Shown here: piece after piece, positions 12,183-38,722 of the stretch
Layout of the letters: each line of letters starts with the position of its first letter
Numbering within the stretch: position 1 is the stretch's first letter
Virus record (IMG/VR): IMGVR_UViG_3300025647_000019
Coordinates: 29,965 to 93,964 of that record
Strand: one strand, 5' to 3'
DNA from: a virus
DNA length: 64,000 nucleotides
Made by a program: the position numbers and the translations under genes
Notes under the pieces: model-generated
What the model was told of the DNA's origin: nothing
What the model saw: only the letters and a program-made list of their open reading frames with translations
Databases searched by the model: none

Positions 12183-12427
12183 TTAACAAATATAAATCAA
12201 ATATCGATTTTACAAAAAAAATAAATAGAAGAGAAACAGATGTTTATATCGAAATAAATGATCAAGATAGGTTTGATCGTATTTCATATAGAGCGTATGG
12301 GGATCCTCAATATTGGTGGTTGATTCTTCAAGCAAATGGATATCAAATTGAATTTGATGTTGAAGCGGGAGAATTAATTCGAATTCCATATCCCTTATCT
12401 GCTGCTTTATCTGATATAGAGGTTTAA
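12179..12427 (+). CDS. Small baseplate protein, gp53 / LysM-like
   Basis: 82 residues starting at TTG (12179), overlapping the previous stop. It contains RFDRISYRAYGDPQYWWLIL followed by QAN, the signature of gp53/tail-protein-X type baseplate wedge proteins, where a LysM-like fold carries the Y-G-x-x-x-Y-W-W motif, and ends in a short strand pair (VEAGELIRIPYP). These proteins join the baseplate wedge to the hub or bind peptidoglycan-like surfaces. Assignment by motif is fairly safe; start codon is less certain. Confidence 0.75.
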   Translation: MINKYKSNIDFTKKINRRETDVYIEINDQDRFDRISYRAYGDPQYWWLILQANGYQIEFDVEAGELIRIPYPLSAALSDIEV

Positions 12428-12428
12428 A

Positions 12429-14156
12429 ATGAGAATAGAAGGTCTCTTAAATTCTTCGTATGTTCGACTATGGTATACTAATCCCGACTTAGATCAAGAA
12501 AATAAATATATCATTGGAACTGATCCTGAAAGACCAGTAAAAAGTAGAATTGAAACTCTTGGAGGAGGAATTAAAGATTTCACTGTTAAAGTGGAAGGTC
12601 AAAATATTATAGTTTCTACAGTATTTGTTGTTCCCTTTCAAACTTTAAATTTATCCCAAGATCCAGATTTGAATAATGAAATTGAAAATTTATTTAATTT
12701 GAATAATACTTGGGGAGCTCAACTCGGAAGAGGTGAGAAAAATGATTTTTGTTGGATTCCAAATTTAAGAGTTGGTGAATCCCAAATTGAATATTCAACA
12801 AGTATTAGAGGAATTGAAATTTCTTTAACTCTTCATGGGGCTCTTTTTTCTCTTTTGAATTATATTAAATTATCCAATCTAAAAAAATATGATATACAAT
12901 ATGGGAGAAATTCTTTTTCTGAAGATAATTTAATTGATCCTTCCTTAGGATTTATAACATTAAGAAATGTTGTAACTGCTATTTTGAATTCTTGTAAAAG
13001 ATATATTGCTTTGTCTTCAGCAGAAAGATTGGCTATTAATGACCCAACCTTTGTACCTCCTCCAATTATTGAAACTCCTGATTTACCTTTCTTTCAGAAT
13101 GAAAATGTTCCTTTACCCCCTGGTGTAGAACTTCCTCCTGCTCCGCCAATTAATTCGGAGAATTTACCAGCAGATCAATTGGAAAAATTAAGGGTATATG
13201 AAGAGGAAGATGCAATATTAGGGGCTACTCCTGATTTAATTCCTTCATTTTCTGATTTAAGAAAAATTATTGTAGCAAAAACCCCTGAAGAAGGATTAGA
13301 AGTTTATAATAAATCTTGGAATGGAAAATTAATTAAAACAAATAATCTTAAAAAGCTTTATGAAGAATTAAGTGCAAATGATAGAACTTCTGTTCAAGCT
13401 TATTTGTCAGCTTTATTAAATGAAAAAGCTTTACAAATGGTTCCTGCTCCCCAAATTTCAGTTAAAAGGTCCGGACTGTCTATATTAGTAATACCAATTG
13501 GGGCTATTCAGGGAGCCGGGTTTTCGGAATTTGAAGTAAAAGAAGATGGTCAAATTTCAGACAAATATAATAGTTCAGATTATTCAGATGAATATTTTAA
13601 TTTACAAAAGGTCGGAAATGTGGTATTATCAGTTCAGGCTAGTACAAATAAAGGTGAGCAAACTCTTGCTTCAATCTCTCAAGCAAAAAGACTGGCTGAA
13701 AATGATGCAGCAGATCAAGAACTTAGTATTTACAATTTCTTAGAAAAAACTTCTAAAGAGATTACTGTTGAAATGATCGGAGCCCCAAAATTAACTTATT
13801 ATGATAATGTTAATATAGAATTTTTGAGTTCGGTTTTTACTGGTAACTATAAAATTATTTCTTTCACTCATAAAGTAAATGGAAACCAATTTACAACTGA
13901 ATTCGAAGCTATCAGGCTTGAAAAAGGAATTTCATCTTCTGCAAATAATGCTGCCGCAGATGAAATTTCAAAGGAAAAAAGAAAAAAAGAATTTGAAGAA
14001 GGATTAAATTTCTTTGAAAGAATGTTTGGAAAGTTGGATACCTCAGAAATAAATATTATCCCTGAGGGTCAAACAATGACAGAAGCAGCAGAACAACTTA
14101 GAAATGAGACTGGTTCGGGTTTACCTTATAATCGGTGGAGAAGAGATTCGAATTAA
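12429..14156 (+). CDS. Baseplate central hub protein (gp27 / gpD-like)
   Basis: 575 residues. The N-terminal domain (strands around residues 50-180) and the C-terminal 80 residues (SKEITVEMIGAPKLTYYDNV, then GNYKIISFTHKVNGNQFTTE) match the pattern of phage late-control/hub proteins that form the trimeric ring beneath the tube. A Pro-rich linker (PPGVELPPAPP, about residue 230) separates the two halves. There is no lysozyme motif, so peptidoglycan cutting, if any, must come from another protein. Good ribosome site (GAGGTTTAAA). Ends the baseplate block. Confidence 0.7.
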   Translation: MRIEGLLNSSYVRLWYTNPDLDQENKYIIGTDPERPVKSRIETLGGGIKDFTVKVEGQNIIVSTVFVVPFQTLNLSQDPDLNNEIENLFNLNNTWGAQLGRGEKNDFCWIPNLRVGESQIEYSTSIRGIEISLTLHGALFSLLNYIKLSNLKKYDIQYGRNSFSEDNLIDPSLGFITLRNVVTAILNSCKRYIALSSAERLAINDPTFVPPPIIETPDLPFFQNENVPLPPGVELPPAPPINSENLPADQLEKLRVYEEEDAILGATPDLIPSFSDLRKIIVAKTPEEGLEVYNKSWNGKLIKTNNLKKLYEELSANDRTSVQAYLSALLNEKALQMVPAPQISVKRSGLSILVIPIGAIQGAGFSEFEVKEDGQISDKYNSSDYSDEYFNLQKVGNVVLSVQASTNKGEQTLASISQAKRLAENDAADQELSIYNFLEKTSKEITVEMIGAPKLTYYDNVNIEFLSSVFTGNYKIISFTHKVNGNQFTTEFEAIRLEKGISSSANNAAADEISKEKRKKEFEEGLNFFERMFGKLDTSEINIIPEGQTMTEAAEQLRNETGSGLPYNRWRRDSN

Positions 14157-14948: not shown

Positions 14949-15015
14949 AAGAACTAAATTGAGTACAGACAAAAAAAATGAAGAAAAACATATGGTTTTT
15001 AAGGAGAACGTATCA

Positions 15016-15903
15016 ATGAATGATACCAAAAGACATTATGATAGATTAATTGCTGCTTCTAAGGCAGAACAGATCTTGGGTAAGAGTAAAATTTATGTAA
15101 ATGTCCCGGCTTTGAAGATCATAAATAAGCTTAGACCAACAAAAGAACGAAATCAATATCTGATTAATTCTATTGATACAGGATATATTCAAACCAAATA
15201 TAGTTCTAAAGATAAGATTACTGCTAGGATGTTTACTACTCCCGGGAATTTAAATCTAATCACTCTTTCAGATGAGGATATTTTAAATTGTATTGTTTCA
15301 AAATATGGAAGAGAAGGTATTTTAGTTGAATTGGATTTTAAACAATTCGAACCGACAATTATGTCAAAGCTTATAGGATACTCATTTGATGGGGACATTC
15401 ACACAATAGTAAGTAAAAAATTAAAAATGACTCGTAATGATGCTAAAATATTAAACAATGCTTATTTTTATGGAGCATCAGAAGAAACTATCAACCAAAA
15501 ATTTTATGTAGGGGGGGATATAAAGGATTATCTTGATATGATGGAGGACTTTAATAATGCAAAAGATAAATTTTTAGAACCCCATTTAGAAATGTATGAA
15601 AAAAATGGATATATTATTAATCCTTATGGAAGAAAAGTGTTTCCAAGAGAAAAAAGAAATATATTTAATAACATGATACAATCTACTGGTTCTGATATCC
15701 TGATTGATACTATCATCAAATTAAATCAAGAAAACTTAAATGTAATCTTACACCGATTTGATTCTTTATTTTTTGATTTAAAGAAATTAAATATATATTT
15801 AGAATTAGAGGAAATAATTACTATAATGACTGAGAATAATTATAACTTAGAGGTCTCAGTTTTAGTGGGAAAGAATTTAAATAAACTTAAGAAACTCAAT
15901 TAA
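15016..15903 (+). CDS. Minimal family A DNA polymerase (palm and fingers only)
   Basis: 295 residues with all three family A polymerase motifs in order: motif A DFKQFEP (Asp107, Glu112 in the place of the PolI steric-gate Glu710), motif B R140-x3-K144-x7-Y152-G153, the NMIQSTGSD helix (residues 219-227, like PolI QGTAAD), and motif C HRFDSLFFD (Asp249). A nucleic-acid-contact segment (ITARMFTTPGNLN) precedes motif A. There is no exonuclease domain and little or no thumb; usual PolA enzymes exceed 550 residues. ATG 15016 follows AAGGAG at nine bases; an in-frame TTG at 14959 with AGGAAAG is the alternative start. Catalysis is inferred, not shown; motif C has Ser after Asp, as in T7 RNA polymerase. 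Confidence 0.7.
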   Translation: MNDTKRHYDRLIAASKAEQILGKSKIYVNVPALKIINKLRPTKERNQYLINSIDTGYIQTKYSSKDKITARMFTTPGNLNLITLSDEDILNCIVSKYGREGILVELDFKQFEPTIMSKLIGYSFDGDIHTIVSKKLKMTRNDAKILNNAYFYGASEETINQKFYVGGDIKDYLDMMEDFNNAKDKFLEPHLEMYEKNGYIINPYGRKVFPREKRNIFNNMIQSTGSDILIDTIIKLNQENLNVILHRFDSLFFDLKKLNIYLELEEIITIMTENNYNLEVSVLVGKNLNKLKKLN

Positions 15904-27251: not shown

Positions 27252-27280
27252 TTTACATTTGTTGATAAGTGGTGTATAAT
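27252..27280 (+). promoter_or_regulatory. Sigma70-type promoter before DNA polymerase
   Basis: TTTACA (27252-27257), 17-nt spacer, TATAAT (27275-27280). 32 nt before the polymerase start. Confidence 0.8.
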
Positions 27281-27312
27281 TGTATTATATACCATTTTTA
27301 TTAGGAGAGGTT

Positions 27313-29781
27313 ATGGCAAACACAACATATAAAATTTCTAGAATATGTTCTTCGTTTAATTATGGGAGATGGAATATCCATAAATTTGGCTATACTCCTA
27401 AAGGGGAATTTGTAAAAGTAAAGTCCGATTTTACTGATTATTTTTATTTTAATTCCGAAGAAGTTTCAAATTTAATTCCCTTTAATAAATTAGATCAAAA
27501 TGACTATGGGGATTATATGTCGGTTTATGGAAAACCGACTCGTAAAATTGAATACAGATCAATAAAAGAAAAAAATCAAGTTGTATCTCAATATCCTGAA
27601 TCAGTATATGAAGCAGATGTTCCCCCCGAGTTTAAATACCTTATGGAAATAAAACATGAATGGGCAGATTCATCTGAAAGACATATTCTATATTTTGATA
27701 TTGAAACATGGGCAAAAGATATAAGTTCTACTCCAGAAAGACCTGATGCTCCCATCACTTCTATTCAGCTTTACTCTACTAGGTTTCAGAGATACTTTTT
27801 GTTTGCTTGGCATCCGGAAAAGACTTCGGATTTCTCAGTTCCTAAAATTCTCCAGAATGAAGAAGTAACTTATATCTTTAGTAAAGACGAACGTGGAGTA
27901 ATTGAATCCTTTATTGCTTTTTTTGAAGAATATTCCCCAGATATTATATCTGGATGGTGGTCTGCTGGATTTGACTTACCATATATTCTTAATCGATGTT
28001 CCAGATTAAACATTGACTATAATCGTTTATCTCCAATAGGAAAAGTAAATCACTATCAAAAAAAGGGAAACTGGAAAACCTATATCAGTGGTGTTGATCA
28101 CATTGATATGCTTGAAGCAATAAAAGACATTGGATATAATCTTCCAAATTATAAACTTGCCACTGCTGCAAAAGAAATCCTTCAAGATCCTGATATTGAA
28201 AAGCTTACTGAAGTTACTTGGGCAGATTGGATGGACAATTTTGGGGGCTTTATAAAATACGGTCTTAGGGATGTCGAGATCCTTAAAGAAATAGATGAAG
28301 AACTAAAGATTTTTGACCTGTACTGCACGATTCAGAAACTTACAAACATTACTACGCTCGGTGAAGTTATGTTTAAATCGTCCGTTGTAGATAAGTTTAT
28401 TTTGACTGAAAGCCACGGAGAATATGTTTTCCCAACTCGTTCAACTTCATCTAGACAGAAATATATGGGTGCACATGTGATGGATCCTAAACCGGGTCTT
28501 CACAAGGATGTAGCTATTTTTGACTTTGCTTCGCTTTATCCAACATCCATTATGACGTTTAATATCTCTCCCGAGACTTTCATTTGCTCAGATAAGCAAC
28601 TTGAAAGAAGAGGATTAACAATAGATGATGTTATCGAGAATTTAAACAAAAGAAACATTCCATTTATCGATACAGGATATGATACAGAACTATTTGGAAA
28701 TAGATACTTGTTTTATTCTCACAGTCATAGATTGGGGATTTTTCCCAAGATCCTTAAAAAGATGTATGAAGAAAGAAAAGCAATCAAATCCGAAATGAGA
28801 AATGAATCTGATGAACATAAATTGAATACTTTAGATAAGCATCAGCAAGCAATTAAATTGATTCTTAATTCTGCTTATGGTGCTTTAGGATTTAATTATT
28901 TTAGATTATATAAACCTGAATGTGCTGATTCTATTACTTACTTTGCTAGACAAGCATTATATTTTGCCCAGGAAAGTTTGCAAAAAGAAGGAATGGAAGT
29001 TATATACCAAGATACAGACTCTGAATTTGCTCTTCAAAATGGGAAAACTGCTACCGAAATTAATATGTGGGTTGACCGATTCAATGGAAGTGAAGTTATT
29101 GAATTTGCTCAGCAATATAATAATGGGGAAATAGAATCTTTTGAAGATTATCTTACTCTTGAAATGGAATATGAAAAAGATCTAGAAAGAATTTATTTCG
29201 GTTATGATGATAAATTAAAAATTGGTGTTAAGAAAAGATATTATGGGATTATTCGTAATTCCCGAAAGAAGTATATTCGGGGATTGAATATCATTCGAAA
29301 AGATACTCCAGAATTCCTAAAAAAGAAATTAGATGTTCTTTCTGAATTGGCAGTCAATGATGCTCTTCAGATAAAACATCTTGAAACAATCAAAAAATTG
29401 ATAAAGCTTCAGGATCTAAAAAATATCGGAATAACTAAAGCATTTGGAAAAAGATTCGATGCTTATGATAAAACTCAGCCACAACATTTAGTTGCTGCTA
29501 AATGGGCAAATGAAATTTTAGGTTGCAATATAAACCATACACATAATCCATATTTGTTTTATGTTATTTCAAAATGTGAAGATCATCTTCCCAAAGGAAA
29601 AAGAAATAAAGCAATTTGCTTACTTGAGGAGGATCTAGAAAAGGCAAAAACAAATCCGGATCTTTTCGAAATCGATTATGACATATATTTCAGAAAACAA
29701 GTATTAGATCAACTTGAGGAGTTTGATCTTATTCCCTCTGTTAAAAATGTTATTGCAGAATATAAGGAGAAAATGAAATGA
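27313..29781 (+). CDS. 43: Family B DNA polymerase (T4 gp43-like)
   Basis: 822 residues with all family B motifs: exonuclease DIE (Asp129, Glu131), FDLPYILNR (Exo II), YGLRDVEILK (Exo III); polymerase motif A DFASLYPTS, motif B LNSAYGALG, motif C YQDTDSE. Both polymerase and 3'-5' proofreading residues are intact. The replicative polymerase of the phage. AGGAGAGG upstream of ATG 27313. Slightly shorter than T4 gp43 (898). The end has a short PIP-like hydrophobic tail (EFDLIPSVKNVIAEY). Confidence 0.95.
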   Translation: MANTTYKISRICSSFNYGRWNIHKFGYTPKGEFVKVKSDFTDYFYFNSEEVSNLIPFNKLDQNDYGDYMSVYGKPTRKIEYRSIKEKNQVVSQYPESVYEADVPPEFKYLMEIKHEWADSSERHILYFDIETWAKDISSTPERPDAPITSIQLYSTRFQRYFLFAWHPEKTSDFSVPKILQNEEVTYIFSKDERGVIESFIAFFEEYSPDIISGWWSAGFDLPYILNRCSRLNIDYNRLSPIGKVNHYQKKGNWKTYISGVDHIDMLEAIKDIGYNLPNYKLATAAKEILQDPDIEKLTEVTWADWMDNFGGFIKYGLRDVEILKEIDEELKIFDLYCTIQKLTNITTLGEVMFKSSVVDKFILTESHGEYVFPTRSTSSRQKYMGAHVMDPKPGLHKDVAIFDFASLYPTSIMTFNISPETFICSDKQLERRGLTIDDVIENLNKRNIPFIDTGYDTELFGNRYLFYSHSHRLGIFPKILKKMYEERKAIKSEMRNESDEHKLNTLDKHQQAIKLILNSAYGALGFNYFRLYKPECADSITYFARQALYFAQESLQKEGMEVIYQDTDSEFALQNGKTATEINMWVDRFNGSEVIEFAQQYNNGEIESFEDYLTLEMEYEKDLERIYFGYDDKLKIGVKKRYYGIIRNSRKKYIRGLNIIRKDTPEFLKKKLDVLSELAVNDALQIKHLETIKKLIKLQDLKNIGITKAFGKRFDAYDKTQPQHLVAAKWANEILGCNINHTHNPYLFYVISKCEDHLPKGKRNKAICLLEEDLEKAKTNPDLFEIDYDIYFRKQVLDQLEEFDLIPSVKNVIAEYKEKMK

Positions 29782-32460: not shown

Positions 32461-34853
32461 AAGTAAAATACCATAAATTTACAGGTAGTATGCCTATTAT
32501 TTTTGTAGAGAGATTTTCAGATTTTGCTACAAAAATAGGATGTCGTCGGGAAGAATTAGAAGAAGGAACTGAATTTGATGGTGGAAAATATTTTAGAACT
32601 ATTGGATTTAAAGGATCTCCACTAAAATTTGCTGTATTTGAAGACTCAATGATGAGAACTCTTTTTGGTACTAGACGAAATGATATAGTTGATGCTACCT
32701 TGGCAATGTATGTTTCCGAAAAGAAATATCCATTAAACAGTAAATTATCAATGAATAATGCAATTAAAATGACTTTAGAAAATGATGCTCAAGGAGCATA
32801 TAGAATTTTACAAAAAGTTTATTTGAATAAATTTAAGGTTGAGAATCCATATCACAAAATAGCTATTCAAGAAGGATTTATCAATGAAGTTCCAGATAAA
32901 CATTTGAATGAACCCGGTGATGCTGAAAAATATAAAGATTCCCATACTCATGTTTCAGGGGGGGAAGGAAATCTTTATATGGTTGGAAAAATGCCACAAG
33001 AAAAGGCACAAGAAAAAGCAAAGAAACAAGGTGCCGATGCTAAACTTGTCAAAGGAAAAATGGTTCCATTATCACCCGAGGAAAAAAAACCATTAGATGG
33101 TGATAAACAAAAACCCCAACAAGAACCAAAAGAGCCTAAAAAAAGAGAAGTTAAAATTGTCAAGACAGATACCGGAGAAGAAATCTCTCCTGAAGAATTA
33201 CCGACTGATACAACGGGAAATGCCGAGCAAGAAAAAACTGGGGGAGGTCAAATTACCCCTGACAAAGTATCAGACAAAAACTTTGATAATATGATTTCGG
33301 CAATTAAAAAGTCTGGGAATAAATCAAAGGAAATAGATGAAGTAATTTCTCTTTTGGAAAAAGCAAAAAAAGGTGAACCAATTTCTACTGCCGAAGCTAA
33401 ATTTATTGGACAATATATTCGACCAACTGAAAGCCCAAAAAATGTTTATATGACACATTCTCAAGTACCAGGAAACCCTCTAGAAGATTTTGGAAAAAAG
33501 GGTATTAAAAGAAACTATGATAAAATTGGAAACCCGACATTAAATAGATTATTAAAACAACTTGGAATCCCTGAAGCAGTCCAAACCCTTACTGGTAGCT
33601 CTAAAATGAAACCAGAAAAAATATTCATAGATGAAAATGGCGATACTAGAACAACAAAAGTTAAAATGGGGGCAGGATCTAAAGGACTTACTATCAATGG
33701 AAGAACTTTAAAAGAAAAGAAAATCCCCGATGGATCTAAATTTGTTGATTATTATCTTCAGCAAGGACTTTCTCAAGAAGAAGCTAAATCTAAAGCAAAA
33801 AATGCTATAAGAGCCTTGAAAAAGTATAATAAAGGGATTGAATATTTCAGAAATGTTATTCAATCTGAAGGAACTGATGCTTTATCAACCATAGATATTA
33901 TTCCAGGGGTTCATCCAACAACATCAGAAAATCGTAGAAAATTAATTGATAAAGCCATTGATGATACAGTATTAAAAATGGCTCAATTAACTGAAGGACA
34001 TAATAAAGAAGAAATAATTAAAGGATTAGAAAAATTAAAAAAAGCTAATTCCGATAATTTTGAACAAATAATGGATGAAGCTCTTCACCCCTTAATGACA
34101 GATAAACTATTAAGAGACGGAGGAGCAGATCTTGTTGAAGTTATTAGCTATGTAAAAGCTTTAGTTAATGGATATGAAGCTTATATGCCTGCAGAAGGAA
34201 ATTGGCCATTAGGTGATGTTTTGATTTTACCCGGTGAAGATACTCCTTTAAAGACTATTGAAGATATGGCAACACATCTCGACATGATTGCAGTTTCATT
34301 AGAAAATCAATCAGTTAAAAAGAATGCTGGGGCTGCCAGTGCAGCAAAAAATAAAATTGAACAGTCATCATTCGTAGATCCACCTCCGGGAGTAAAAGAA
34401 GATCTCCAAAAAATGGAAGGTGAGATTTATGATGATATCTGGAATAATAACAACTTAGATAAAGCAGAAGAAGCTATATATGAACTATATCAAAAATATG
34501 GATTAGATCCAAAAAAATATTTAAAAGATCCAAGTGCAAAACAAATTGATAAAGTTTTAAAAATGAACTTAAAAGCAAACCCAGAATTGGATAAAAAAGA
34601 GCATAGAAGACAATTAGAATTAGAATATTTAAATGGAATGCTTTTACAGGATGTTCATAATGCTTATATTGATACTCAATTTTATTCAAATGAAGTATAT
34701 AAGGTTCAGAAAAATAATTTTACAACGAATAGATCTAACGGGGTTACAAAAATCGCATATATGAAATATGCCTTTAATAACAAATATAGTAAAAGTGGAA
34801 AACCCGATACTAGAATTGCTGGACTTATGGTAAATAAAGATAGGATGAAATAA
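32457..34853 (+). CDS. Large unknown protein with candidate protease-processing sites
   Basis: 798 residues. An N-terminal domain (1-130), a linker with SHTHVSGGEG and a long Lys/Glu/Pro-rich disordered part (about 185-260), then a helical half. Sites like AIQEGF and HLNEP are I/L-x-E type and would suit a gp21-like prohead protease, so it may be packaged in the virion. No catalytic motif recognised. It is 4-nt overlapping with both endolysin and the NMNAT-like gene. Confidence 0.5.
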   Translation: MKVKYHKFTGSMPIIFVERFSDFATKIGCRREELEEGTEFDGGKYFRTIGFKGSPLKFAVFEDSMMRTLFGTRRNDIVDATLAMYVSEKKYPLNSKLSMNNAIKMTLENDAQGAYRILQKVYLNKFKVENPYHKIAIQEGFINEVPDKHLNEPGDAEKYKDSHTHVSGGEGNLYMVGKMPQEKAQEKAKKQGADAKLVKGKMVPLSPEEKKPLDGDKQKPQQEPKEPKKREVKIVKTDTGEEISPEELPTDTTGNAEQEKTGGGQITPDKVSDKNFDNMISAIKKSGNKSKEIDEVISLLEKAKKGEPISTAEAKFIGQYIRPTESPKNVYMTHSQVPGNPLEDFGKKGIKRNYDKIGNPTLNRLLKQLGIPEAVQTLTGSSKMKPEKIFIDENGDTRTTKVKMGAGSKGLTINGRTLKEKKIPDGSKFVDYYLQQGLSQEEAKSKAKNAIRALKKYNKGIEYFRNVIQSEGTDALSTIDIIPGVHPTTSENRRKLIDKAIDDTVLKMAQLTEGHNKEEIIKGLEKLKKANSDNFEQIMDEALHPLMTDKLLRDGGADLVEVISYVKALVNGYEAYMPAEGNWPLGDVLILPGEDTPLKTIEDMATHLDMIAVSLENQSVKKNAGAASAAKNKIEQSSFVDPPPGVKEDLQKMEGEIYDDIWNNNNLDKAEEAIYELYQKYGLDPKKYLKDPSAKQIDKVLKMNLKANPELDKKEHRRQLELEYLNGMLLQDVHNAYIDTQFYSNEVYKVQKNNFTTNRSNGVTKIAYMKYAFNNKYSKSGKPDTRIAGLMVNKDRMK

Positions 34854-36679
34854 TGGCAGTAAGTAAACCAAATGTTATAGTATCCTATGGGGGAAGATTT
34901 CAGCCCTTTCATTTAGGACATTTTAAAGTTTATCAGGCCTTAGTTAAAAAATTCGGTAAAAAAAATGTATACATAACTACTTCAAATAAAGTTGAAGATA
35001 AAAAAAGCCCATTATCTTTTCAATGGAAAAAAAAGATGATGATTCATACTGGCGTTCCATCAAATAAAATTCTTCAAGTTGCAAATGGGTATAAAGCAGA
35101 TCTTGTTTCTAAAGCTGCAGGATTCAATTTAGAAGATACAATATGGATTTCGGCTATTGGGGAAAAAGATGTAAGCAGATTAAGTGGTTGGAATTATTTT
35201 TTACCATATAAATCTGGGGGAGCAATGGTAACTGCTGATAAGCATGGTTATTATTATCCAGTTCCAAGTTCTGAAAGCGTTACCAAAGTTCAGGGAAAAG
35301 TTTTATCTGCAACAGTTGTTCGTGATGTATTAAGAAAAGACGAGTTAGATAAAAAAGATTATGAATTTTTAAAGGGGGCTCTTGGAGCTCCTAGAGCTTT
35401 AATTGATACTTTACGAACTCAAATAAAATTAGAATCTCAAATTAGAAATGGTACGATTTTAACCGAAGGTGGGATGGGTGGACATATGTCTAATCTTTAT
35501 GATGATCCCACATTAAAATTCTCAGATCTTGAAAAAATTATTAAAGACTCCTTAAGCGGTGAATTAAATAAAACAGAAATTCGAGAAAAAACTGATGGCC
35601 AAAATTTATTCGCATCAGTTATAAATGGGGAAGTTCGTTTATCAAGGAATAAATCTCAAACCAAAAATAAAGGAGCTAATTCCCTAGATGCTCAAGGTAT
35701 TGCTAAAAATTGGGCAGAGGTTCCACAAGTAAGAGATGCATTTTTAGAAGCTTTGAAAGCATTAGAGACTTCATTTAAGCAATTTTCAAAAGAGGAACTA
35801 GAAACTATTTTTGACAATGGGGGAAATTGGGTTAATATGGAAATTATGACTCCGAGTAACCAAAATGTTTTCTATTATGGGGATCCCCAAGTTGTATTTC
35901 ATGGATTAGAAATGGTTGATGATGATGGTAAGAAAATTGGGGTTAATGCAGATCTAACTAAAAAACTATATGATAAAATTAGTTCTATTAAGCCAGGAAA
36001 AGTTCCTGTTAAAACTCCCCCGTTTGTAAAATTAAAAAAACGTGAGGATTTTTCGGAAAAAACTTCATACTTTATTTCAAAATTATCAAAATTTAGAAGT
36101 CAACAAAAAGTTGGAAGTAATGCAACTCTTGGTGATTGGTATGAAAAATATTTTGAGAAAAAAATTTCCGAAATGGAAAAGAAATATAGTCATAAAATAG
36201 ATCCAAAACTTAAAGCTAAAATTGCTTATAGATTTGGATGGAACGATAAGTCCTTAACTATGCCAACAATAAAAAAGGAATTAAAATTCTTACCAGTATA
36301 TGAAGAACTAGCACAATTGAATCGGAATCTAAATGATGAATATAAAAAAGCTAGAGAACCTCTTGTTAGATTATTGATGGAATTAGGTATTGAGGTATTA
36401 CAGAATCTTGAGCAGTATTTATCAGCAAGTCCTGAGCAAACTATTCAGAATTTAAGAGATAATCTTGCTAAAAAAATAAAACAAATTCGGGGATCTAAAA
36501 ACCCTGAAGACATAGAAAAAATGAAAGACATTTTAAAGCAGGTTCAATCTGTTGGAGGAATTCAGAATATGGTTCCAACAGAAGGTATTATCTTTGTTTA
36601 TAATGGCAAATCTTATAAGTTAACGGGGACATTTGCTCCTATAGGGAAGTTACTTGGAATGGGAAGGTATGGTAGATGA
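34853..36679 (+). CDS. Fused nucleotidyltransferase (NMNAT-like) and ligase-like enzyme
   Basis: 608 residues, two domains. Residues 1-190: HIGH-type nucleotidyltransferase, GGRFQPFHLGH (His20-x2-His23) and the C-terminal LSATVVR (152-158), the SxTxxR signature of NMN adenylyltransferase-like enzymes. Residues 205-608: a covalent-nucleotidyl ligase-like fold with KTDG (Lys246 as adenylylation site), VRLSRNKS (motif-Ia-like), WVNMEIM (motif III-like), EGIIFV (577-581, motif IV) and lysines at 586/589 (motif V). The two are joined by an ILTE-GGMGG linker that resembles a prohead-protease site. NAD or nucleic-acid end chemistry is likely; substrate unknown. Confidence 0.65.
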   Translation: MAVSKPNVIVSYGGRFQPFHLGHFKVYQALVKKFGKKNVYITTSNKVEDKKSPLSFQWKKKMMIHTGVPSNKILQVANGYKADLVSKAAGFNLEDTIWISAIGEKDVSRLSGWNYFLPYKSGGAMVTADKHGYYYPVPSSESVTKVQGKVLSATVVRDVLRKDELDKKDYEFLKGALGAPRALIDTLRTQIKLESQIRNGTILTEGGMGGHMSNLYDDPTLKFSDLEKIIKDSLSGELNKTEIREKTDGQNLFASVINGEVRLSRNKSQTKNKGANSLDAQGIAKNWAEVPQVRDAFLEALKALETSFKQFSKEELETIFDNGGNWVNMEIMTPSNQNVFYYGDPQVVFHGLEMVDDDGKKIGVNADLTKKLYDKISSIKPGKVPVKTPPFVKLKKREDFSEKTSYFISKLSKFRSQQKVGSNATLGDWYEKYFEKKISEMEKKYSHKIDPKLKAKIAYRFGWNDKSLTMPTIKKELKFLPVYEELAQLNRNLNDEYKKAREPLVRLLMELGIEVLQNLEQYLSASPEQTIQNLRDNLAKKIKQIRGSKNPEDIEKMKDILKQVQSVGGIQNMVPTEGIIFVYNGKSYKLTGTFAPIGKLLGMGRYGR

Positions 36680-37779
36680 GTGAATCGTTATTAAAAATCT
36701 TAGTATTAGAAGGCGGAGCAGTTTTTAAAACTACTATATCCGCAGTTCCAAAAGAATATTTAAATCCAACAATGAATAAAGCTCTTAAAGATTCAGGGTT
36801 TGGGAAAATAAGATCAAACCCTGTTGGAAATATCTCAAAACCTTTTTTAGGAGATGTTGATATTGCTGTTGAATTTGAAGATCTTGTTAAATTATTTGGA
36901 TCAACTAAAGATAAAAAAGACTTTTGGGAAAAAGCTGATATCTTTATGAAGAAACAAAAAATTAAAGACTATTCAATAAATAAGGGTCTTCAACAGATTC
37001 ACGTTCTTTCTCCCTTAGTTGATAAAAAAGGAAAACAATTACCTGCTGTTAATAAAGAAGGAAAAGAAATTGGAGGAGAAGGATGGGTTCAAATTGATTT
37101 TATGATTGGTCGAGTAAAATTCATGAAAGACATGCTATCAGGAACAGTTGATAGCAAATATAAAGCAGCATGGAGAAATCAATTATTAGTCGATATTCTA
37201 GCTAATACCTCAACTGGTGATGGGGATGTAAAACATAAATTCCAGGTTAATCGTAAAGACGGATTACAATACGTTCGTTATATAGATCAAAACGGTAAAA
37301 AGAAGAAATTAAATGTTAAGACAGTATCTACTGATATGGATGAAATTTCTTCTTATATATTCGGGAAAAAATATAAATGGAAAGACGTTGATACATTTGA
37401 AAAAATGTGGAAAGCATTTAAAGGATCCGAATTTAGGTGGGCAAGTAAACGTAAGCAAATAATTAAAACCTTTACCGATGCTTTAAAAAGACAAAAAATG
37501 GAATTGCCTTCTGAATTAAATGAAGTAGAAAAAACTATGAATAAGAAACAAATTACTGAAATTGCTGAAATCATTTTAGAAGAACTTGAAAATAAAAATG
37601 AAAAACTCATTAAGCTTATAAAATCTTATGAAGAAAGATTAGATTCTAGTGAATTAAATGAAGAAATTTTTATTGAAGAAACTGAAAGGGCTCTTAGAGA
37701 ACACTTGGGATTCCATGATGATACTGAACTAACAAAAGCTGAATCGGAATTAGAGCGTATGAGGAGATTAATGGGATGA
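36676..37779 (+). CDS. Pol beta-type nucleotidyltransferase-like protein
   Basis: 367 residues. A Pol beta superfamily core: LGDVDIAVEF (Asp60, Asp62) and third carboxylate in VQIDFMIG (Asp141), with a helical C-terminal half. The N-terminus MSESLLKILVLEGG ends in L-x-E followed by GG, like a cleavable capsid-targeting peptide. The C-terminus has a shared type helix (MNKKQITEIAEIILEELE, from residue 289). Overlaps the NMNAT/ligase gene by 4 nt, suggesting a common pathway. Could add nucleotides to RNA or protein; not a known family to me. Confidence 0.55.
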   Translation: MSESLLKILVLEGGAVFKTTISAVPKEYLNPTMNKALKDSGFGKIRSNPVGNISKPFLGDVDIAVEFEDLVKLFGSTKDKKDFWEKADIFMKKQKIKDYSINKGLQQIHVLSPLVDKKGKQLPAVNKEGKEIGGEGWVQIDFMIGRVKFMKDMLSGTVDSKYKAAWRNQLLVDILANTSTGDGDVKHKFQVNRKDGLQYVRYIDQNGKKKKLNVKTVSTDMDEISSYIFGKKYKWKDVDTFEKMWKAFKGSEFRWASKRKQIIKTFTDALKRQKMELPSELNEVEKTMNKKQITEIAEIILEELENKNEKLIKLIKSYEERLDSSELNEEIFIEETERALREHLGFHDDTELTKAESELERMRRLMG

Positions 37780-38159
37780 AAAAGAAAGAATTAATTGAGC
37801 TAATAAGGGAAGTAATTTATTCTGAACTTCCAGATATTATTTCAGAAATCAAAGCTTCTTCTTATGAAAATAATGAATATTTAAAAGAAGAAGACGTTTT
37901 TGATGGTCAATCAGTTCGGGAACATATAAGATCTGAATTTAGAAAAGTAAATCCAATTCAAGAAAGACCTAAAGCCCCAAAAGGTAAAAAAATGTTAGTT
38001 GATTATAGAGGAGAGAAAGTTACTTCTGGATTGGGAGTAATGGATTGGTTTAAAGGACAAGTAGCAGAAGGAAAAACTAGACCAACTGGTGAATTTAAAC
38101 ATACTGATGATCAAATGAAAAATTTTATGGAACAAAAATTTGGAAAGAAGATAAAATGA
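37776..38159 (+). CDS. Small protein with shared helical N-terminus
   Basis: 127 residues. Starts MKKKELIELIREVIYSELPD, a member of the MKKSELKELIKEC family. The rest is charged with a basic C-terminus (MEQKFGKKIK). No domain recognised. 4-nt overlaps on both sides, so it is coupled to the nucleotidyltransferase gene. Confidence 0.55.
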   Translation: MKKKELIELIREVIYSELPDIISEIKASSYENNEYLKEEDVFDGQSVREHIRSEFRKVNPIQERPKAPKGKKMLVDYRGEKVTSGLGVMDWFKGQVAEGKTRPTGEFKHTDDQMKNFMEQKFGKKIK

Positions 38160-38722
38160 AAGTATCAAAAGAAATTTATGATTTAGTTCAAAAGCACGAC
38201 CAAAAAGAAATTAAAATGGGAATTGCTGTTGAGCGTGAACACGATGTTGGTGACACAGACGTTGTTCAATCTGATCTTGATGTATTGAAAATCGCTCTTG
38301 CCCATCTTGAAGAAGACCCCGAATATTATACCCATCTGAAAGCAATGGAAGATAAATATGTCAAAGAACGTGATGGTATGTCTATTGATGTTAAAAAGGG
38401 AATGAAACCTTGGACTAAAAAGAAAAAAAGTAGATTAGCGTCTGAAGAAATGGTTCAAGAATGGATTCTTGAAGAAGGAACTGGAACACTTAAAAAAAAA
38501 ACTTTAAATGAAGCTCCACACATTGAAGTCAACGATAAGGTTATTGATTTCGAATTTGAAAAAGACAAAAACGAAGGTCTCAAAAAAATAATCAAAGCCA
38601 TTATGAAACAAGAAATTTCCGACAAGTATGGCAACAAATTTAAACTCACATCAGATCGGGAGGTTGAGGAATTCATAAAGAAGATTATGAGAAATCCTCA
38701 GATTAAACGATTAATATCTTAA
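38156..38722 (+). CDS. DUF5661-like protein
   Basis: 188 residues. The N-terminal 65 residues (MGIAVEREHDVGDTDVVQSD, LDVLKIALAHLEEDPEYYTH, LKAMED) match the DUF5661 pattern (G-I-x-V-E-x-E-H ... H-L-x-E-D-P-x-Y-Y-x-x-L). Function of the family is unknown; it appears in phages and bacteria. After it come ILEEGTG and LNEAP, which look like prohead-protease sites, then a helical domain of about 70 residues. Last large gene of the lysis/enzyme operon. Confidence 0.7.
   Translation: MKVSKEIYDLVQKHDQKEIKMGIAVEREHDVGDTDVVQSDLDVLKIALAHLEEDPEYYTHLKAMEDKYVKERDGMSIDVKKGMKPWTKKKKSRLASEEMVQEWILEEGTGTLKKKTLNEAPHIEVNDKVIDFEFEKDKNEGLKKIIKAIMKQEISDKYGNKFKLTSDREVEEFIKKIMRNPQIKRLIS

Follow-up and report, generated by a model that had tools for sequence, protein, structure and literature searches.

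The closest described systems are the T4-like RNA repair enzymes (Rnl1 and Rnl2 with Pnk) and the pol-beta-type nucleotidyltransferases (NTases) of the RlaP kind, which adjoin RNA ligases in jumbo phages (PMC7824862). Phage RNA repair has so far been known as made after infection. The internal proteins of T4 bear an N-terminal peptide, in which positions 4 and 7 direct targeting, and positions 8 and 10 direct processing (PMC9026906); IPII and IPIII both start with MKTYQEFIAE. For the polyvalent phage proteins, the available part of the published description reports 2H domains as not seen in association with RNA ligases (PMC5512222).

We analyzed two overlapping viral genes in a DNA stretch of 64,000 nucleotides (the window), which is a part of an IMG/VR record of 93,964 bases. 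The first gene encodes a protein in which a nucleotidyltransferase domain with HxGH and SxTxxR motifs is joined to a ligase-like domain with the KTDG lysine. The second gene, sharing four nucleotides (ATGA) with the first, encodes a DxD nucleotidyltransferase, whose GDVDIA supplies D60 and D62; both contain an L-x-E-GG site (E205 of the fusion and E12 of the NTase). A sequence-only reading had proposed this arrangement, and all of its elements were located (Table 1). We propose that the trio of NMNAT-like, ligase and NTase enzymes is a virion-packaged RNA-repair kit, a proposal that has, in our estimate, an even chance of being correct.

Table 1. Features of the two overlapping genes and of the gene that follows (window coordinates; the arrow marks a candidate cleavage point).
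Feature	Position	Strand	Basis
NMNAT-fold + RNA-ligase-type fusion protein, 608 aa	34853..36679	+	ORF, Pfam, structure models
HLGH, aa 20-23, nucleotide-binding motif of fusion	34910..34921	+	sequence; Pfam CTP_transf_like; fold
SATVVR (SxTxxR), aa 152-157 of fusion	35306..35323	+	
L-T-E↓G-G junction, aa 203-207 (E205), candidate prohead-protease site freeing ligase	35459..35473	+	comparison of relatives
EKTDGQN, ligase motif I, aa 245-251, nucleotidyl-lysine K246	35585..35605	+	invariance, 52 rows
E330 (WVNMEIM), ligase motif III Glu	35840..35842	+	invariance
E577 G578, ligase motif IV EG	36581..36586	+	invariance
K589, ligase motif V Lys	36617..36619	+	invariance; sequence
Pol-beta-type nucleotidyltransferase (NTase), 367 aa, homologous to capsid-tagged jumbo-type NTases	36676..37779	+	
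L-V-L-E↓G-G (E12) at NTase N-terminus, aligned with capsid-targeting cleavage point of jumbo NTases	36700..36717	+	
GDVD (D60, D62), NTase metal-binding motif	36850..36861	+	alignment
D140 (QIDFM), NTase third carboxylate	near 37093	+	alignment
Gene after NTase, 4-nt overlap with NTase, begins MKKKELIELIREV	37776..38159	+	

We found relatives in at least 591 stretches of viral contigs and in just three public phage records, including that of Microcystis phage Mel-JY01, where the relative is annotated as a "cytidylyltransferase like protein". A search of 84,980 prokaryote species genomes yielded six matching contigs, all from metagenome-assembled genomes. The ligase family is thus essentially viral, and a host origin of the ligase was set aside because of this near-absence from the genomes of bacterial and archaeal species.

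Jumbo-type contigs encode the ligase by itself, as a protein of 420-460 aa, and its gene is almost always followed at a short distance by a second gene with a divergent ligase-like domain, in most cases with a C-terminal NMNAT domain. Examples of these second genes are L134:9221-11062, L083:7274-9232 and L226:9240-11480, in which the ligase part has no Pfam match; their motif I sequences are TEKIQAS, SENLDGS and TEKIDAP. In L202, L205 and most of the contigs L218-L227, NMNAT is a gene of its own (~200 aa), and a pol-beta NTase gene comes after it, directly adjoining or past small genes; the second ligase-like protein of L202 has no NMNAT part. The window NTase has the DxD motif and the third Asp in the alignment, with GN at the GS motif, which is GS in relatives. 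Pfam gave no match to it at E values up to 1; it is adjacent to a ligase, as RlaP is, and searches with it in phages, viral contigs and related records gave no convincing relative. Its homology to the jumbo NTases was reached solely via the L202 NTase (25% identity over 243 aa, E 1e-9). Given this homology, ligase, NMNAT and NTase form a conserved set, whose members are joined or overlap in the window but are encoded separately in other contigs, and the recurrence of the trio as neighboring genes in jumbo-type relatives bears out the proposed linkage of three nucleotidyl-transfer enzymes. Two separate DNA-polymerase-like genes are found elsewhere in the window (14959-15903 and 27280-29781; PHROG 17 and PHROG 262), and a DUF5661 protein is encoded two genes past the NTase (38156-38722), with relatives near the ligase in L083 and L085.

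The residue preceding GG at the L-x-E-GG site of the fusion is Glu in 124 of 154 relatives and Met in 29. These 29 relatives, with LLLMGG, at first contradicted the idea that every L-x-E-GG is a protease site. Five residues upstream of this position, Met-clade members encode Lys-Glu as AAG GAG in 17 of 22 distinct sequences, compared to 1 of 152 Lys-Glu pairs elsewhere in the same frames (Fisher p = 3e-18, calculated on related, hence not independent, sequences), while the Glu clade members with Lys-Glu at the same place have AAA GAA (5/5). The Met clade thereby has a Shine-Dalgarno sequence, AAGGAG, nine bases ahead of an in-frame ATG. The Met is therefore very likely a start codon, with the ligase translated internally and separately from MGGAYGH, and the objection to the protease-site reading is lifted. 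A similar exchange is found in the NTase family, where jumbo phages have the cleavage-type sequence E↓SGNAI and the window has E↓GGAVF: in a Lak phage, a Met that reads as a start directly precedes SGMAI, and in phage Phosso the annotated Met precedes GGAAF. This replacement of a protease-type Glu by a start Met, at the same point in two unrelated folds, is, of all the sequence evidence, the strongest indication of mature proteins that would begin at [GS]G, and it suggests that the ligase may be freed by two interchangeable routes, a protease site or an internal start. The use of L-x-E-GG as a processing site, proposed initially from the motif, is thus supported by comparison of relatives. The site stretch (residues 1-10) is disordered in the ligase-only model, with pLDDT 36. 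It should be noted that GG-x-x-GH persists in relatives that have lost the Glu; thus, a part of the motif is structural.

We found putative capsid-targeting peptides in many relatives. Among stand-alone ligases, 35 of 38 distinct N-termini fit the pattern M..[YF]xx[FW][ILVM]xE, compared to 0.13% of shuffled N-termini and 40 of 354 other genes of the same loci, and most of the adjacent separate NMNAT and NTase genes have a T4-type peptide, too (e.g., MKHVKLFEQFINE). A gene island in L223 (3610-12064) contains many genes that start with a near-identical T4-type peptide, MKHVKLFEQFINE, several of them without known function. The peptide preceding the ligase resembles the protein's own N-terminal tag in 16 of about 50 marine fusions (p 0.003, the lowest attainable value); a rule that the fusion always repeats the targeting peptide before the ligase was rejected, as it holds in these 16 only. 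The T4-type [YF]xxF[IL]xE peptide is absent from the window fusion and NTase. The window phage has a recurrent N-terminal tag of its own, MKKSELKxLIKECxxEL, on seven proteins versus 0.08 expected (starts at window positions 2380, 6383, 7682, 30844 and 37776, and at G000:C1 25722 and 26195). Two of the tagged genes are located between portal and prohead protease, another is the gene that overlaps the NTase (37776), and the relative L085 has seven proteins with a corresponding tag, MKKSELRQLIREE. It is possible that this tag serves as the capsid-targeting signal of the window phage group.

The genomic position is informative as well. In 111 of 112 marine-type loci that extend at least 3.5 kb past the gene, a homolog of the terminase large subunit lies within 6 kb downstream, at a median distance of 1.5 kb; in L094, the identities of terminase, portal and S77 protease were confirmed. 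Of 13 records examined, 12 encode the T4-type S77 protease, compared to 0 of 14 bacterial controls, and in L229 it is located at 12335-12925. The genome of the window phage has a T4-type terminase, portal (gp20), S77 prohead protease and gp23-type capsid protein; the operon, preceded by an amidase gene and a gene for a 798-aa protein, is about 40 kb away from the terminase. Taken with the linkage of the trio in relatives, this survey of gene neighborhoods and the targeting peptides support, by comparison, the suggestion that the proteins may be delivered with DNA, and packaging of the trio in the head is likely. Conversely, the trio may consist of RNA-repair enzymes that the infected cell produces and that do not enter the head, similar to T4 Rnl1 and Pnk, with L-x-E-GG being merely structural. 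This is the described norm for RNA repair (PMC7824862), and it agrees with the lack of a recognizable targeting peptide in the window fusion and with the persistence of GG-x-x-GH without Glu; however, we consider it unlikely in view of the position just upstream of terminase in 111 of 112 loci, the T4-type peptides of stand-alone ligases (35 of 38) and of most adjacent NMNAT and NTase genes, and the Glu/Met swap with an internal Shine-Dalgarno sequence.

The ligase-only structure prediction (pLDDT 89, pTM 0.85) has a ligase fold, with the Palaeococcus RNA ligase and T4 Rnl1 on top in the Foldseek comparison. Structural realignment gave Z values of 9.6 for Naegleria Rnl5 (188 aa), 8.9 for T4 Rnl1, 8.6 for fungal Trl1, 8.5 for T4 Rnl2 and 8.0-8.2 for archaeal RNA ligases, Rnl5, Rnl1, Trl1, Rnl2 and Rnl3 together spanning 8.0-9.6 over about 180-205 residues, whereas the African swine fever virus ligase had 7.8 and cellular DNA ligases had 6.4 or less; these values are middling and refer to a common core of ~190 residues. 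The 50 matches listed for the model are nucleotidyl ligases, RNA ligases foremost, and RNA ligases rank above DNA ligases in both structure comparisons. In an alignment of 52 diverse rows, E245, K246, T247, D248 and G249 of motif I with the following Q and N, R265 (Ia), E330 (III), F349 and H350 (IIIa), E577 and G578 (IV), and K589 (V) are all invariant. A ligase core was thus found and the catalytic residues are conserved, so that neither of the outcomes named beforehand as refuting a ligase, a predicted fold without the core and active residues not kept in relatives, was observed. The fusion ends only 19 residues past K589; thus, the OB domain and motif VI of DNA ligases and capping enzymes are absent. 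Motifs IIIa and IV are separated by ~220 residues, mostly helical, a feature that is not known from any described RNA ligase. The ligase part has no match to Pfam or PHROG models, and when the ligase alignment was used as a profile against PDB sequences, no ligase was recovered, only noise from ribosomal eS6. The domain is predicted to be a covalent nucleotidyltransferase of the RNA-ligase type, probably acting on RNA, and it is perhaps an unannotated RNA-ligase family; the Pfam, PHROG and PDB profile searches gave no link to the described Rnl1-Rnl5 groups.

In long relatives (1,000-1,474 aa), the chain is extended by a CCA-enzyme head (E 1.2e-29), by HD domains (3 of 33) or by a P-loop kinase (9 of 33), the kinase matches being of AAA_33/zeta toxin type and not specifically polynucleotide kinase. 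One of the proteins, L113:1709-6115, combines in 1,469 aa a CCA-enzyme head (PolyA_pol), HD, NMNAT-like and RNA-ligase-type domains; another, L103:1450-5058, has a retropepsin-like Zn_protease (PF05618) and a pol-beta NTase-like motif between NMNAT and ligase. An RNA-ligase core without an OB domain, a pol-beta NTase partner and fusions to CCA-head, HD and kinase domains make RNA repair the best fit, so that, among the themes raised by the sequence-only reading, RNA end-healing and ligation is the likeliest; a linear three-step chemical chain does not agree with the separate, separately tagged proteins of relatives. A DNA-directed role, in which the ligase would seal nicks or ends in a phage genome that is packaged or entering the cell, is improbable: ligase and DNA would share one head compartment if the enzyme is packaged, and some DNA ligases are found lower in the structure list, but the higher rank of RNA ligases in both comparisons, the lack of an OB domain or motif VI past motif V, and fusions to enzymes of RNA ends (e.g., a CCA-adding head) argue against it. 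Nucleotidylation of host or head proteins rather than nucleic acids is more improbable still, because, although pol-beta-fold enzymes are able to modify proteins and delivery at infection would fit host takeover, as for T4 Alt, the ligase catalytic motifs are all present and invariant, RNA-end enzymes are among the fused partners, no domain for protein modification was seen, and nothing was found in favor of the suggested modification of host proteins.

The role of the NMNAT-like domain is less defined. Pfam CTP_transf_like covers the N-terminal domain of the fusion (E 6.5e-7), and the PHROGs match, "cytidyltransferase", is to the fusion N-terminus only. In the full-length fusion model (pLDDT 83), residues 6-198 match NadD, NMNAT and phosphopantetheine adenylyltransferases with Z about 12, and the window domain carries HxGH and SxTxxR within the NadD/NMNAT fold. 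None of the substrate-specific NCBIfam cut-offs was passed by the domain, the generic TIGR00125 alone passing, and in the alignment GxHH replaces HxGH in most marine relatives. The marine relatives L001-L080 have GxHH together with an intact SGTxIR, pointing to altered or lost catalysis. NadV was found in 2 of 13 relative records searched, and KptA and the NAD-dependent DNA ligase (LigA), sought as NAD partners, are rare or mostly absent in relative records, many of which are fragmentary, making these absences weak. The failed specific cut-offs, the rarity of NadV and the GxHH variant suggest that the domain may make NAD or another dinucleotide, or may be partly non-catalytic. A ligase with NAD recycling was dropped because NadV, KptA and LigA are mostly absent, and NAD formation as the theme of the locus, another idea of the sequence-only reading, is unproven, as the domain falls below the substrate-specific cut-offs and most of the 13 records lack NadV; restoration of NAD by the NMNAT domain after host NADase action is our preferred guess.

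For the window phage, we infer packaging and cleavage, as well as the RNA substrate and the NMNAT reaction. In the proposed mechanism, the NMNAT-fold adenylyltransferase, the RNA-ligase-type enzyme and the pol-beta NTase would act as a set, produced late together with head proteins and packed into a T4-like head. The head protease would cut past the Glu of L-x-E↓GG, parting NMNAT from ligase and removing a short leader from the NTase, and the trio would enter the cell alongside DNA. The NTase would then put back lost 3' nucleotides, the ligase, auto-adenylylated on K246, would reseal RNAs such as tRNAs cut by host defense RNases, and the NMNAT domain would restore NAD or provide an adenylylated cofactor. 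That such a pre-loaded RNA-repair set, freed by the head protease or by an internal start at the same residue, acts before phage gene expression is, in our view, equally likely to be right or wrong. Points that count against a packaged kit are the lack of a recognizable targeting peptide in the window fusion, the position of the window operon away from the terminase, the degenerate NMNAT of most marine members and its failure at the substrate-specific cut-offs, the rarity of NadV, KptA and LigA, the conservation of GG without Glu, and kinase matches that are not specific for polynucleotide kinase.

If the proposal is correct, a particle-borne ligase acts at time zero, when tRNA-cutting and NAD-depleting defenses trigger; an unannotated RNA-ligase family, present in hundreds of viral contigs, is gained; and many proteins labeled "cytidyltransferase-like" are explained. 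The exchange of Glu for Met, with a ribosome site built in upstream, is an unusually clear readout of a proteolytic processing point from sequence.

Compared to known systems, the trio shares the HIGH-superfamily adenylyltransferase fold and the GRFQPFH motif with the NadM and NadR enzymes of phage NAD salvage (PMC9503650); however, a Nudix or kinase partner like those of NadM/NadR is lacking, NadV is mostly absent, and the NMNAT-like domain is fused to a ligase. Polyvalent phage proteins are similar in being long chains of unrelated enzyme domains near packaging genes, whereas the available part of their description contains no NMNAT-ligase core (PMC5512222). The jumbo-type relatives share the N-terminal peptide spacing of T4 IPI-III, and the genomes have the T4-type S77 protease; however, the cargo of the trio is enzyme-like, and the window members are without the T4-type peptide. 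The T4-like RNA repair systems (Rnl1 or Rnl2 with PNK, and RlaP; PMC7824862) are alike in having a KxDG ligase of RNA-ligase fold beside a pol-beta NTase. In contrast to Rnl1, Rnl2 and RlaP, the ligase of the trio has no Pfam or PHROG ligase match and contains the long helical stretch of ~220 residues between motifs IIIa and IV; the trio is fused or linked to NMNAT, and its relatives appear to be capsid-targeted and are located in the head module.
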